From Aggregicoccus sp. 17bor-14 (GTDB taxonomy: Bacteria; Myxococcota; Myxococcia; Myxococcales; Myxococcaceae), in assembly GCF_009659535.1 (NCBI RefSeq), contig NZ_VJZZ01000007.1:1-64000 (forward strand): a DNA stretch of 64,000 nucleotides. The letters run 5' to 3'. Below the pieces are notes generated by a model, which saw only the letters and a program-made list of their open reading frames with translations, did no database searches and was not told the DNA's origin. Positions 27,618 to 62,666 of this stretch are shown here, piece by piece. Every line of letters begins with the position of its first letter. The first letter of the stretch is position 1. Made by a program: the position numbers and the translations under genes.

Positions 27618-28538
27618 TCAGGCGCCGGCGTCTGCAGAGCCTGCAGGCGAGCTGCTCGCGCCGGGCGGAGCAGGGCGGGGCGCGGCCGCCGCGGTGCCGC
27701 CGGCATCGGGCGCGACCTGGGGCGCCGCCGCGGGCGCGCCGTTCGCCGGAGGCGCGGCCGCCCCGTCCACGGCCCGCGGCGCAGCGGGGGTACCCGGGGC
27801 GGGCAGCGCCGCACCGCCCTGCGCCTCTCCCGTGCCGCCATCGAGCGCGGTGGGAGGCCGCGGCCGCGGCCTCGGGCGCAGCGCGCCAGCATCGGGCAGG
27901 GCCGCTGGCAGCGGGGGCGCGCCTGCATCCGGCGAGGGCTCCGCGCCCGCATCTGCCGAACCGGAGTCACCCCCGTCGGGCGTGCCCGCGTCGTCCTGCA
28001 GGAACAGCAGGGGAGGCGGCGGTGCGATGCCGCGAACGCTGTCGGGGGTCGCGGCGTGCAGCGCCGCGCGCGCGAGCTCCAGGGCGCGCTCGGGCGAGGC
28101 GCCCAGCCAGGTGGTCACCAGGCTGCAGGGCGTGTCGTCGTCGAAGGTGACCACCTGCAGCACGCCGGGGGCAGGAGAGGCGCGCGCCGCGGCGCGGCCG
28201 AGCACCGGCACCTCCTCGCCCCCTGCGCGCAGCGTGGGCTCCAGGAGCTTCAGGTAGTCCGTCTCGGTGCGCGGCTCGCAGTCGTAGGCCACCGAGGCGA
28301 GCGTCTCGGGCGGGCCCGACACGCGCAGCGTGCACACCGGCCCGCAGGTGGGGCAGGGACTGTCCTGGGTGAGCCGGGCGCCGGGCAGCAGCTGCTCGCG
28401 CAGCTCGGAGGGCAGCAGCAGCTCACACTTGAGGCCGCTCACCGGCACCTCGAGCGGCTTCGGCCCCGAGGGCTCCGAACGGCAGCCCCCCAGCGCGAGC
28501 AGCGCTCCCACGGCGATCGGACCTGCAGCCCGCTTCAT
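27618..28538 (-). CDS. Lipoprotein with disordered Ala/Pro/Asp tail
   Basis: A 306-residue exported protein. The signal KRAAGPIAVGALLALGGC has its lipobox Cys at about residue 19. The folded part (about 30-165) contains paired cysteines: CELLLPSEL, SPCPTCGPVCTLRV, VAYDCEPR and DTPCSLVTT. The rest is a low-complexity tail rich in Ala, Pro and Asp-Ala-Gly units. I used the ATG; an in-frame GTG nine bases upstream is also possible. Function is unknown. The conserved cysteines suggest disulfides in the periplasm or at the surface. Confidence 0.72.
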   Translation of the reverse strand: MKRAAGPIAVGALLALGGCRSEPSGPKPLEVPVSGLKCELLLPSELREQLLPGARLTQDSPCPTCGPVCTLRVSGPPETLASVAYDCEPRTETDYLKLLEPTLRAGGEEVPVLGRAAARASPAPGVLQVVTFDDDTPCSLVTTWLGASPERALELARAALHAATPDSVRGIAPPPPLLFLQDDAGTPDGGDSGSADAGAEPSPDAGAPPLPAALPDAGALRPRPRPRPPTALDGGTGEAQGGAALPAPGTPAAPRAVDGAAAPPANGAPAAAPQVAPDAGGTAAAAPRPAPPGASSSPAGSADAGA

Positions 28539-28696
28539 CGCGCGCACACTAGACGAAGCGCGCTCGGGGGCAAGGGCGAGCGTGGGCGAGCGCCCGCTCC
28601 AACGTGCGCGACCGCACGCAAGCGGCCGTGCGAGCGGGCCGGGGGCTGAACTACAGTGGCCTGAGTGCCCGCCGCTGCGGCACCAGGGAGACTCCC

Positions 28697-29695
28697 ATGC
28701 GCGCCACCGTCATCGGCTCCGGTTCCTTCGGCACGGCCCTCGCCAACGTGCTCGCCACCAACTGCAGCCAGGTGCAGATGTGGGCGCGCGAGCCCGAGCT
28801 CGTCCAGGCCATCAACACCCGCCACGAGAACCCCACCTATCTTCCCGGCATCCCCATCGCCTCCAACGTGCGCGCCTCGCACTCGCTGCAGGAGGCGCTC
28901 GCGGGGGCGGACCTCGTGGTGGCCGCCACCCCCAGCCACGCCACCCGCGACGTGATGGGCCAGGCGCTGCCCCACCTGCCGCAGGGGGTTCCCATCATCA
29001 CGGTGGCCAAGGGCATCGAGAACGACACCCTGCTCACCATGACGGAGGTGCTCGAGGACTGCCTGCCGGACGCCTACCACCCGTACATCGCGGTGCTCTC
29101 CGGGCCCTCGTTCGCCAAGGAGCTCGCGCAGCGGCTGCCCACGGTGGTCACCATCGCGAGCCACTGGGACAAGGTGGCGCAGCGCTGCCAGCGCGCCTTC
29201 CAGACGGAGACCTTCCGCTCCTACACCTCGAGCGACGTGGTCGGCGTCCAGTACGGCGGCGCGCTCAAGAACGTCATCGCGATCGCCGCGGGCATCGCGG
29301 ACGGCATCGGCATGGGTCACAACGCGCGCTCGGCGCTCATCACCCGCGGGCTCGCCGAGATCGCCCGCATCGCAGTGAGCCGCGGCGCAAACCCCCTCAC
29401 GCTCTCGGGCCTCAGCGGCATGGGGGACCTGGTGCTCACCTGCACCGGCGAGCTCAGCCGCAACCGCAAGGTGGGCATGGAGCTGGGCCGCGGGCGCCCC
29501 CTCGCCGAGGTGCTCGGGGACATGAACCAGGTCGCCGAGGGCGTGAAGACCGCCAAGAGCGCCCGCGACCTCTCGGTGCGGACCGGCGTGGAGCTGCCCA
29601 TCTGCAACCAGGTCTACGCCATCGCGTACGAGGGCAAGAGCCCCAAGGCGGCGGTGGTCGAGCTGATGACCCGCCAGCCCAAGAGCGAGCTGTAG
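28697..29695 (+). CDS. gpsA: NAD(P)-dependent glycerol-3-phosphate dehydrogenase
   Basis: GpsA reduces dihydroxyacetone phosphate to sn-glycerol 3-phosphate, the backbone for phospholipids. The 332 residues start with the Rossmann loop TVIGSGSFGTALANVL. VAKGIENDT and LSGPSFAKELA follow. The catalytic lysine segment is GGALKNVIAIAAG, and then NARSALITRGLAEI and LSGMGDLVLTCTGELSRNR. The ATG follows AGGGAG by about six bases. The opposite strand stays open across the whole gene, in frame with the neighbouring TetR-type gene. The gpsA reading is clearly the real one here. Confidence 0.96.
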   Translation: MRATVIGSGSFGTALANVLATNCSQVQMWAREPELVQAINTRHENPTYLPGIPIASNVRASHSLQEALAGADLVVAATPSHATRDVMGQALPHLPQGVPIITVAKGIENDTLLTMTEVLEDCLPDAYHPYIAVLSGPSFAKELAQRLPTVVTIASHWDKVAQRCQRAFQTETFRSYTSSDVVGVQYGGALKNVIAIAAGIADGIGMGHNARSALITRGLAEIARIAVSRGANPLTLSGLSGMGDLVLTCTGELSRNRKVGMELGRGRPLAEVLGDMNQVAEGVKTAKSARDLSVRTGVELPICNQVYAIAYEGKSPKAAVVELMTRQPKSEL

Positions 29696-29800
29696 TCGCG
29701 CAGGCGAGGCGCGGCGCCAGCGTCCCTCGGACCTGCGCCTCGCGCCGCGGGCCGCACTCCGGGGCTGCGCCCGCGCGGCCACGGGCAGTGCCTCCGCGCG

Positions 29801-30853
29801 GCAGCGCATGACCGCCGCGGGCTCCGCGCCTGCCGTGGGCGGCGGCGCTGCGAGGCCGCGCAGGGCCGCTGCGGGCTCCGCGCCTGCCGTGGCCGGTGGC
29901 GCTGCGAGGCAGCGCAGGGCCGCTGCGGGCTCCGCGCCTGCCGTGGGCGGCGCGCTCGGCGCGGGCGAAGCGTCCTTCGAGCCACCGGACGGCCCCGCAG
30001 GCCCCGCCGCGGAGGACGTTGCCTTCGGCCCTCCAGACGGCCCCGCTGGCCCCGGCGCCGCAGGGGCCTCGCAGCGCAGGGACTCCCAGACCGCAGCGGC
30101 GACCCGCGCCAGGTCGGCATCCATGCGTGAGAGAGCGTCGCCTTCGGGCGGGGCCGACGCTGGACTGTCGTCCGAGGGGACATCGTCCTCGGGTGACGGG
30201 GACTCATCTTCGGGCCGAGCCGACTTCGGGCTGTCGTCCGAGGGGGCATCGTCCTCTGCTTCCGAAGCGCGAAACTGGGTTGCGAGGACCTCGCGCACGA
30301 GAGCGACGAGCGGCCCCCACGTGAGCGCGCGGAGGATAACCAGCGGGGCGCGCCTCACCGCTCCCTCGTCGATGCCTCGGCGCAACACGCGCTCGAGCCA
30401 CACACGGGGCACTTCGATCTCTTCCAGGCCGTGTTCCCTGCGCACCCACGGATCGGTGGGAAGCCTGCGCTCGCCCACCCGCCGCGAGGCCTGCGCCTGC
30501 CGCGCCCGGCCCGTCATCGGAGTCAGGTAGGTGAAGCCGAAGAACTCCGGGTCGAGGATGGCCCACCGAGCCATGGCCTGCCACATCTCGAGGAAGGCCT
30601 CGCGATACGCGGCGCCATCCTCGAGCGCCCATTCGAACGCGCGCAGCGCGCACTGCTGCAGGGCCGCATGGGTCTCCCACCGCATCGATTCGGCGAGGCC
30701 ACCCTTGCTCCCGTGCCAGCGGTACAGCGACCCCAGCGACACCCGCATCGCACGGGCAATCTCCTCTGCGCGCACGTGCTCGTAGCCGTGCTCCACGAAC
30801 AGGACCGCCGCCCGCCGACGCCCGTCCCGCCAGTGCTCCTCGACGTCCCACAT
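29801..30853 (-). CDS. TetR-type regulator with tandem repeats and unresolved 3' end
   Basis: Residues 1-60 are a TetR helix-turn-helix: RRAAVLFVEHGYEHVRAEEI, then VSLGSLYRWHGSKGGLAES. A helical ligand domain runs to about 195. It is interrupted by two 22-residue acidic repeats (197-240; EDDxPSDDSPxSA). The terminal helix LSRMDADLARVAAAVW resumes at 241. Then come two 16-residue repeats (269-300, PAGPSGG) and two and a half 18-residue repeats (306-351, GAEPAAALR). All repeat periods are multiples of three bases and stay in frame. The end given is the last repeat residue, not a stop. No stop occurs in this frame until 28535, antisense to gpsA. A frameshift, a missed stop or a real overlap are all possible. 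Confidence 0.7.
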
Positions 30854-30887
30854 GCCCGCCCCCCTCCCGCCCCAAGGTCTCGCGTGA

Positions 30888-30901
30888 AAGCAACGTTGCT
30901 T
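30888..30901. promoter_or_regulatory. Perfect 14-base palindrome, candidate TetR operator
   Basis: AAGCAACGTTGCTT is exactly self-complementary and is centred about 41 bases upstream of the TetR-type start codon. TetR-family regulators commonly bind such short palindromes over their own promoter. This is inference from position and symmetry. No second copy was noticed elsewhere in the window. Confidence 0.55.
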
Positions 30902-31084
30902 CTACGAGGCACCCTCGTCGTAGCAGGGGTGGCTGACGTCGCAGGCGCGGTGCCCCGGAGGGCGAGGAGCGCGCCAATGCGAGGCGCTGCGACCTGCGCT
31001 CGATGGGCGCTCGGCGGGTGGTGCGCCGGGCTGCGGGCATCTGCTTCCACCCGTGCTCGGGCGCAGCTTCGAGCACACGGGAGC

Positions 31085-31440
31085 GGGCTTCGACGAACAG
31101 GATGCTGCGCTCGCCCTCTCCGCGCGGCCCCGGACTTCGGCGGGCGTGCCGCACGAACGGCATGGTGAGATCCAATGCATCGCGGCCTCTGCCTTCGGGC
31201 GCAGCCTTGGGCGTCCGCAGGGCGTGCCTGCACGAGCGGCATGCTGCGCTCTCTCCACCGTGCTGCCCTCGCCTTCGAACGCAGCGTCGGTCGCGCGTGG
31301 GGGCGTGCTTGCCCAGACGGCATTCTGCGCTCTCCACTGCCCGGCTTCCCCGCCTTGGGGTGCATCGGAAATCCCGCAGGTAGGCGTGCCCGGAGGAGCG
31401 GAATGCTGCGTCCCACGACACCGCGCGGCCTCGCGTGAGA
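31085..31440. repeat. Degenerate 81-base tandem repeat array, about 4.5 units
   Basis: Units begin with GGCGTGC at 31143, 31221, 31302 and 31383, spaced 78, 81 and 81 bases, with a partial unit at about 31085. The best-kept core is GGCGTGCCTGCACGAGCGGC followed by ATGCTGCGCTCTCC. The remainder of each unit is much less conserved. Spacing and decay suggest an old tandem duplication or the remnant of a repetitive coding region. Confidence 0.6.
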
Positions 31441-31486: not shown

Positions 31487-32638
31487 TCAGTGCTCCGCGT
31501 CCGTGAGCCGCTCGAGCACGCGCTCGAGGCCGCGCACGACGGTGGCAAGCCTCGCGAAGTCGAGCTGCTCCACGCGCTCGTCCGCGCGCCAGGTGCTCAT
31601 CGGGAAGACCTCCGTGACGCGCACTGCCGGCAGTCCCTGCCGCCAGAAGGCACCGGGGTCCGAGGCGCCCACGCCAGGCAGCGTGCCGGGGACGAACGCC
31701 GCACGGCCTCTCACGTCGCCCTGCCCGAGCGCCCACGTCACCGTGCGCGCGAGCCTGCGGGAGGCGAGGTTGCTCACCACCATCAGCGGCTCCGTGCGGG
31801 CGCCGCGCGCGCTGCGCCCCAGGGCCTCGAGACAGAGCACGCCGCGCACGCGCGTGCCGTGCTCTCGCAGGTGCGCTGCGTACACGCGGGATGCGGGCAG
31901 CGGCGTGAGCGGTCCCGAGGGCAGTGCCACGAAGCGCACCGTCAATGCGGCGGTGCGGTCGGCAGAGGCCCAGCGCTCCGCGAGCGCGAGCAGGGCGGCC
32001 ACGCCCGTCGCATTGTCGTTCACGCCGGCGCTGCCCGCCGGGGAGTCGTAGCGCGCCGCCACCACCACCACGTCGTCGGCAGCGCGGGCGCCGGGCAGCT
32101 CCGCCTCGAGGGTTCGCACGCCCTGCGCGCCCACCCGGAACGAGCGCCGGGTCGGGCGCAGGCCCCGCGCGGCCAGGGAGGCGCCCAGCGCGTGCTCGAT
32201 GCGCGTCGCAGCGCGCTCGAGGTGGAAGAAGCGGGGCGCGTCGCGCACGTTGCGCTCCCCGAGCTGCTCCGCGAGCGCGCGCACCTCGCGCTCCAGTCTT
32301 GCGCCGAGGAGGTCCGCGGACCGTTGCTCGGCAGCGCCGTCCCGCTGCGCGCCGAGAGGCTCTGCGAATGGCTGCTCTGCGTTTCGCTCGCTCTGCGCGC
32401 CGGGAGGCTCTGCGAATGCCTGCTCTGTGTTTCGCTCTCTCTGCGCGCGGGCCCCGCGCTCGTCACGCTGCTGAGGAGAGTCCAGGGCCCGTCCCCGGGG
32501 GCCGCGGGCGTCGCGCTCCAGCGGTGCGCTGCGAGCCGCTCCGGACAGAGCAGCCTCACGCGCGCGCGTGGGCTCCGGTGAGGGGGCACTGCCGATGGAG
32601 GGCTCCTGGCCGGGCTGCGGCGCTGCTCGCTCTGCCAT
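31487..32638 (-). CDS. M28-family peptidase-like protein, probably catalytically dead
   Basis: A 383-residue protein. The C-terminal part (about 185-383) has the zinc-aminopeptidase M28 fold pattern: VVVVAARYDSPAGSAGVNDN, FVALPSGPLTPLPASRVYAA, LCLEALGR, SDPGAFWRQGLPAV, and FARLATVVRGL. Expected metal ligands are mostly absent. The first His is Arg197, the Glu-Glu pair is missing from 238-247, the SDH His is Pro328, and the late HxT segment is WRADE. Only Asp208 and Glu271 remain. Residues 66-129 are four 16-residue repeats (QRERNTEQAFAEPPGA type), possibly helical. There is no signal peptide. The ATG is preferred over an in-frame GTG 36 bases upstream. Confidence 0.75.
   Translation of the reverse strand: MAERAAPQPGQEPSIGSAPSPEPTRAREAALSGAARSAPLERDARGPRGRALDSPQQRDERGARAQRERNTEQAFAEPPGAQSERNAEQPFAEPLGAQRDGAAEQRSADLLGARLEREVRALAEQLGERNVRDAPRFFHLERAATRIEHALGASLAARGLRPTRRSFRVGAQGVRTLEAELPGARAADDVVVVAARYDSPAGSAGVNDNATGVAALLALAERWASADRTAALTVRFVALPSGPLTPLPASRVYAAHLREHGTRVRGVLCLEALGRSARGARTEPLMVVSNLASRRLARTVTWALGQGDVRGRAAFVPGTLPGVGASDPGAFWRQGLPAVRVTEVFPMSTWRADERVEQLDFARLATVVRGLERVLERLTDAEH
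32300..32443 (-). repeat. 48-base in-frame tandem repeat, three clear units
   Basis: This encodes three consecutive 16-residue units (QRERNTEQAFAEPPGA, QSERNAEQPFAEPLGA, QRDGAAEQRSADLLGA) in the N-terminal part of the M28-like protein, with a fourth weaker unit after it. The first two are nearly identical at DNA level (CTGCGCGCCG...GCTCTGCGAATG), indicating recent duplication. Confidence 0.8.
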
Positions 32639-32716
32639 GGGGGCAGGATGCGCACGCTGCCCCGCGGCCTGCACGAGGGCTGGCCGTGGGGCAGGGGAGC
32701 GAGGGACCTTCTGCGG

Positions 32717-62118: not shown

Positions 62119-62666
62119 TGCCCGCGCCTCTCGCGCAGACGCTGGCGCAGCTGCTGGCGCTCCTCCGGAGTCATCTGCCGCCAGCGGCGCAGGTTCTCCA
62201 TCATCTCCTCGCGCCGCTCGGGGTGGGCGCGCAGGTAGGCGCGCATGCGCTGGCGCAGCTCGGCGCGCCGCTCGGCCTTGAGGCCGCGGAACTCCCGGAA
62301 GTGCTCGCGCAGCGCGCGCCGCTCCTCGGGCGGGAGGCGCTTGAAGTCGGCCAGGTTCTGGCGCAGCCGCTGCTTCTCCTCGGGGGGCAGGGCGCGGAAG
62401 CGGCGCAGGTTCTCGCGCACGCGCGCCCGCTCCTCCGGCGGCAGCGCCTTGAACTCGCGCAGCCGCTCGCGCAGCCGCTCCTTCTCCTCGGGGCTCATCT
62501 TCTCGAAGCGCTCGAGCGCCGCGCGCCGGTCAGCATCGGAGGCGGCCCCGGCGGCCGGGCTCGCGGCCTCCGGCGGCGGCGCGGGCTGGGGCGCCGTCTG
62601 CGCGAGCGCCGGCAGCGACAGCGCCAGCACGAGCGCCGCGAGGCGGGGAAGGGGAAAGCGCATCAT
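62115..62666 (-). CDS. Exported DUF3106-type Arg/Glu-rich helical-repeat protein
   Basis: A 183-residue exported protein. The signal peptide is about 1-22 (LPRLAALVLALSLPALAQTA). A Pro/Ala linker follows, then about six units near 20 residues each with the pattern LPPEERxxLRxxLxxFR, for example FKALPPEERARVRENLRRFR and FKRLPPEERRALREHFREFR. This is the DUF3106 arrangement: amphipathic helices joined at PEE turns, strongly charged. Its position after an ECF sigma/anti-sigma pair suggests a periplasmic accessory to envelope-stress signalling, which is inference. The ATG overlaps the anti-sigma stop (ATGA). Confidence 0.82.
   Translation of the reverse strand: MMRFPLPRLAALVLALSLPALAQTAPQPAPPPEAASPAAGAASDADRRAALERFEKMSPEEKERLRERLREFKALPPEERARVRENLRRFRALPPEEKQRLRQNLADFKRLPPEERRALREHFREFRGLKAERRAELRQRMRAYLRAHPERREEMMENLRRWRQMTPEERQQLRQRLRERRGQ

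Follow-up and report, generated by a model that had tools for sequence, protein, structure and literature searches.

Regulators of the TetR/AcrR type (PF00440; PDB 4me9, 3pas and 3vpr) combine a helix-turn-helix (HTH) with a helical ligand-type domain, have a palindrome just upstream of their own gene, and ordinarily end at about residue 190-230. The gene family described here has the same HTH, helical domain and palindrome, but its reading frame runs on without a stop for another 165 codons or more, and an arbitrary tail together with dispersed near-identical copies sets it apart from ordinary members. SlmA, a TetR-family nucleoid occlusion factor (PMC4117426, PMC3573117), likewise combines the TetR fold with many dispersed chromosomal sites, whereas in the present family the sites often lie in arrays, the gene is multicopy and the open tail is long. 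In the case of REP palindromes and RAYT (PMC3733652), dispersed extragenic palindromes co-occur with one protein family, as they do here, but the protein here is of the TetR type and the sites are operator-like. A functional mRNA without a stop codon and a tail-to-tail neighbour with 3' overlap are found in arfA, which lies tail-to-tail with mscL (PMC10070815) and whose nonstop state is made by RNase III cutting, ArfA being a rescue factor (PMC10107115, PMC10070815). In contrast to arfA, stops are absent from at least about 500 nt of DNA in the present family, and the product is a regulator rather than a rescue factor.

The locus lies in a 64,000-nt stretch of DNA from Aggregicoccus sp. 17bor-14, which was analysed as a whole (the window). 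An ORF check of the window gave a minus-strand frame of 772 aa that starts at the ATG at 30853 and has no stop before 28535, as in the preliminary description, which had also offered, as one of two alternatives, a tail far longer than those of known TetR proteins; with 508 codons past the domain, this was borne out. The features of the frame and its neighbour are as follows.

30062..30853, minus strand: TetR-type domain, residues 1-264, with the HTH at residues 15-56 and the last helix at 237-259
30120..30251, minus strand: 66-nt in-frame repeat in two copies, 74% identical, giving a 22-residue repeat before the last helix
29957..30052, minus strand: 48-nt in-frame repeat in two copies in the tail, 75% identical
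29796..29956 (copies compared within 29778-29956), minus strand: 54-nt in-frame repeat in three copies in the tail, 79-91% identical (TRF score 266, 89% matches)
28538..30061, minus strand: tail without stops, 508 codons past the domain, with the first stop at 28535-28537
28694-29695, plus strand: gpsA (Pfam E 4e-55), the convergent neighbour, antisense to the TetR tail

The TetR ORF spans gpsA entirely in antisense, and the codon blocks of the two frames are in step, with TetR position 1 opposite gpsA position 3. Across gpsA, G/C makes up 94-100% of the first codon positions in the TetR frame, so that TNN stop codons are nearly impossible antisense to this gene. The coding-type G/C periodicity of the TetR frame stops near 30060, which is the end of the last TetR helix, and a scan of the minus strand from 30200 to 29617 found zero stops in any frame. 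For this single locus, an artefact, be it a frameshift, an assembly error or the chance openness of a G+C-rich frame, has points in its favour: the open antisense run across gpsA is by itself unsurprising, codon bias alone accounting for it, and a 127-codon stop-free intergenic stretch is not rare at the G+C of the locus. The window locus on its own could be chance. What is beyond chance is the identical open-frame condition in every copy of the TetR family.

The N-terminal HTH of the window protein matched PF00440 (TetR_N) with an E-value of 4.7e-7, above the gathering score, and the match was present in 9 of 10 aligned family members. An all-helical TetR fold was predicted by an AlphaFold model (pLDDT 79.5) built from a 13-sequence alignment, the single-sequence fold being poor; the best PDB matches were TetR proteins (Foldseek E 2e-6, TMt 0.77), and the profile matched PDB TetRs across profile residues 9-192. 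The domain match and the modelled fold both uphold the earlier assignment as a TetR-type regulator. The SlmA model was matched weakly by one of 10 family members (E 1.4e-4), none qualifying as an SlmA equivalog, and we know of no FtsZ link for this family, unlike SlmA. As for a Y1 transposase of the REP/RAYT type, the co-occurring protein matched TetR models and no transposase model at the cut-off.

In the AlphaFold model, helices 171-201 and 237-259 were well modelled, and residues 202-236 between them were a low-confidence loop. The 22-residue repeat, which had been placed inside the last helices, falls within this loop instead, and at this site homologous copies have different insertions or none. 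All three kinds of in-frame repeat that had been described (66, 48 and 54 nt) are present, although only the 54-nt array is strong by TRF. In-frame tandem repeats are present in many family tails and differ from copy to copy, between paralogues and between species; they would be the expected way of lengthening a tail without breaking its frame. Nothing speaks for the phase variation within a strain that the preliminary description had considered. Large repeat-rich insertions were also observed in the TetR ligand domain of L117, L118, L132, L150 and L151, elsewhere than the 22-residue repeats of the window. Apart from the TetR gene, the window contains 48-bp tandem repeats with ERNTEQAFAEPPGAQ-like units at 32325-32472, in the N-terminal part of an M28-peptidase-like gene (31487-32674, minus strand) just upstream of the TetR gene, and a strong 54/108-bp tandem repeat at 62281-62493 (TRF score 268).

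Distant paralogues of the domain were found in the window's own genome at C6:242134 and on contigs C20 and C26, the latter two cut off at contig starts, and all are long open frames. A search of genome contigs with the single protein gave no matches; an alignment query then yielded loci in Myxococcus and Pyxidicoccus. By profile search, members were present in 17 of 96 genomes of the same bacterial family, at 1-19 copies per genome and in two genera, the second being Myxococcus, including Pyxidicoccus. Copies within one genome are typically 85-97% identical across 0.6-1.3 kb, with more divergent subfamilies at about 70%, and they adjoin unrelated genes. The near-identical stretch begins at, or some way before, the shared promoter/operator region, and many copies lie at contig ends, as repeats do. 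Nothing clear was seen of target-site duplications or terminal repeats at the inspected junctions. Judged from the assemblies, from which all results were computed, the window gene is one member of a dispersed, multicopy TetR-type family in Myxococcaceae. An open-access literature search returned nothing relevant on stopless TetR genes or on intergenic palindromes of Myxococcus.

For 82 complete copies from 14 genomes, closed genomes included, the domain end was placed by HMM and the flanks were fetched. The first 150 codons of the 82 tails, 12,300 codons in all, contain 0 in-frame stops, while frames +1 and +2 contain 130 and 299, respectively. The TetR/AcrR trait of a protein that ends near its last domain helix is thus absent, since all 82 copies remain free of stops for 164 codons; the earliest first stop lies 165 codons past the last helix (median 342, range 165-1024). 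Stops return from about 200 codons on and reach the general level of about 1.2% per codon by 400-500 codons. By contrast, an unrelated ORF of TetR type in L138 ends 6 codons past its match, and most ordinary TetRs of the window genome are in open frames of 200-290 codons. Once related tails were removed, 40 non-redundant tails were left, and their first 150 codons hold 0 stops where position-specific composition predicts 85 (Poisson P ~1e-37), whereas their two other frames hold 67 and 136 stops. At seven orthologous loci, the net indels in the tail are in-frame only (3, 9, 45, 111, 264 and 32+4 nt), and indels of 1-2 nt occur solely beyond the start codon of the neighbour.

Against these counts from 82 copies, an artefact is exceedingly improbable and is refuted at the family level, and the proposal that a frameshift or assembly error had removed the stop is rejected as a general explanation. 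The preliminary description had further raised homologues that lack the repeats and end at about residue 262; homologues without the repeats exist, and their domain ends at the equivalent point, but no stop follows there and all 82 stay open. Its suggestion that repeat periods in multiples of three point to selection for an open frame agrees with the family-wide exclusion of stops, and the open frame itself is very probably under selection. To our knowledge, no comparable stop-exclusion rule has been described for any regulator family.

With the neighbouring genes called by a simple rule based on the G/C content of each codon position, the next gene was convergent in 65 of the 79 copies with a called neighbour. 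Where the convergent gene is less than 450 nt away, the TetR codons coincide with the neighbour codons in antisense in 34 of 36 copies, and this register is the only stop-poor one. It was found in 8 of 12 copies at gaps of 450-600 nt and in 4 of 17, equal to chance, at gaps above 600 nt; the five register exceptions in a 37-copy set all have gaps of at least 434 nt. Where the next gene is co-directional, as in 14 copies, the frame likewise runs for at least 186 codons without a stop. Both the convergence and the locked register at short distance would suit a translated antisense RNA, in which ribosomes on the open frame shield the transcript from Rho and read-through silences the convergent neighbour, here gpsA. 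However, the neighbours are diverse, distant neighbours show the register no more often than chance and copies with co-directional neighbours are equally open. Such silencing is quite improbable overall, and as the main cause of the open frame it is ruled out by the gap-dependence of the register. Because the register falls to chance at a distance and the co-directional copies are open, what is selected is an open tail of about 165-200 codons and not antisense reading as such. The tail is kept open through in-frame repeats, through intergenic DNA and, with a near convergent gene, through its stop-poor antisense register.

To what extent the encoded peptide matters can be seen from substitution rates and composition. 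The domain, with dN/dS values of 0.17-0.42, is under purifying selection. The values are 0.47-0.58 over the first 25 codons of the tail and 0.7-1.1 further on, and past its first ~75 codons the tail is close to neutral at the amino-acid level. At the start of the tail, up to codon 75, the residues P, G, A, S, D and E are abundant in frame 0 and K/R are scarce relative to the other two frames of the same DNA (K+R 0.06-0.07 against 0.21-0.25), a bias that largely fades from codon 75. The composition bias of frame 0 argues for a translated tail. Considering that it differs strongly only in the first ~75 codons, the start of the tail seems to be translated and shaped as an acidic linker of the disordered type, and the rest need only be open. 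The lack of a selected composition past codon ~75 fits a role in the translation process as well as one for polypeptide length.

The main rival reading is control through nonstop mRNA, where transcripts would end within the open tail, trans-translation or another rescue system would tag and destroy the protein, and the regulator would build up only under rescue overload, as with ArfA. Such control would explain why the absence of stops is all that counts, the peptide sequence beyond ~75 codons being indifferent. On the other hand, an intrinsic terminator pattern was not found to any notable extent (2 weak matches in 82 tails), real stops follow at 165-1024 codons without a sign of an earlier transcript end, and selection has acted on the composition of the first 75 residues. 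We regard nonstop control as unlikely, and tentatively favour over it and the other rivals a reading in which the length of the polypeptide is what matters. The tail would then really be translated and be needed for its length, irrespective of its sequence: as a flexible, bulky appendage of the DNA-bound TetR, it may help the protein to cluster or act locally on its arrays. We think it rather probable that the function of this TetR family requires translation to continue without termination over ~165-200 codons beyond the folded domain, regardless of what the following DNA encodes, each dispersed copy conscripting the antisense strand of unrelated neighbours as a coding tail, and that this is paired with dispersed operator arrays.

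The candidate sites upstream of the window gene are as follows.

30887..30902, minus strand: palindromic candidate operator GAAGCAACGTTGCTTT (window form also given as AAGCAACGTTGCTT and AGAAGCAACGTTGCTTTC), with its centre some 50 nt ahead of the start codon (for AGAAGCAACGTTGCTTTC, 53 nt ahead of the domain start) and placed as GGAAGGAACGTTCCTTCC in relatives
30917..30938, minus strand: CGTCAGCCACCCCTGCTACGAC, by upstream comparison the counterpart of the TGTCAGNCCCACCCGGTAG box upstream of family copies

Most copies with sufficient upstream sequence carry a palindrome, in the main GGAAGGAACGTTCCTTCC, at 50-70 nt from the gene or, in some cases, at about 105-110 nt. Three Myxococcus genomes contain 47, 176 and 186 such sites when up to one mismatch is allowed, against 0 for the reversed control. 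Among 27 genomes of this genus, the exact palindrome is present in all 16 that carry the TetR family (2-132 each) and in 0 of the other 11, with 0 for the reversed-pattern control, a co-occurrence that is confounded by phylogeny as the species share ancestry and are not 27 independent points. Many of the sites are grouped in arrays that repeat every 50-92 nt or so and frequently begin 50-120 nt past a gene end. In the window genome, a related form is enriched (18 places versus 2 in the control), and the window's own candidate operator has one other near-exact site, C13:169051, which has a short gene on one side and a convergent mntP-like gene on the other.

Several further repeats were observed. 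About 20 operator-like palindromes with a ~56 bp period lie beside an MFS transporter gene at G022:C1:8938248-8939379 (L159 4248-5362), and similar arrays elsewhere have periods of 71, 77 and 91 bp. Between the TetR and M28 genes of the window, 31081-31415 holds four diverged 34-nt units, three of them at 81-bp spacing, with the imperfect palindrome GAGCGGCATGCTGCGCTC; this spaced repeat was rejected as an operator array, its core being near background genome-wide (75 and 73 versus 47 and 34 in the control). At L172, L174 and L175 of the window genome (G000), a recurrent intergenic stretch, CTCCTGTTCTGAGATGTCGGGGG and AACCTCGGGA...TCCCGAGGTT, accompanies palindromes and resembles a further dispersed repeat or terminator.

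Based on the position, palindromy and co-occurrence of the sites and on established TetR biology, a dimer of the protein would bind the palindromes, and from TetR biology and site position the DNA-bound TetR would repress its own promoter and occupy the palindrome arrays. As many as 19 paralogues have nearly the same operator, and yet none of the family matches from the 96 genomes is interrupted by a stop within the domain, as if each mattered locally. This, along with the indifference of the tail sequence, would agree with co-translational action in cis, whereby the long open tail tethers the nascent TetR to its own gene and each near-identical paralogue acts mainly on its own promoter. The minimum of ~165 codons, however, exceeds the need for emergence from the ribosome, and truncated copies exist (L098, L133 and L146), so that we hold action in cis to be improbable. 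The data set antisense silencing apart from the readings by polypeptide length, nonstop mRNA and action in cis, but not those three from one another. Taken all together, the sequence comparisons make it fairly likely that the family encodes a TetR that regulates its own gene, binds arrays and must have a long tail, the sequence of which is arbitrary.

If true, the family would be a clear natural case of selection on the absence of stop codons rather than on the peptide, at dozens of independent sites and with antisense registers recruited. It would bear on the origin of new C-termini and overlapping genes, and on ribosome rescue or the function of disordered tails in regulators. The annotation of these genes and their neighbours by gene finders is probably wrong, and the dispersed palindrome arrays of Myxococcus would gain a likely protein partner.
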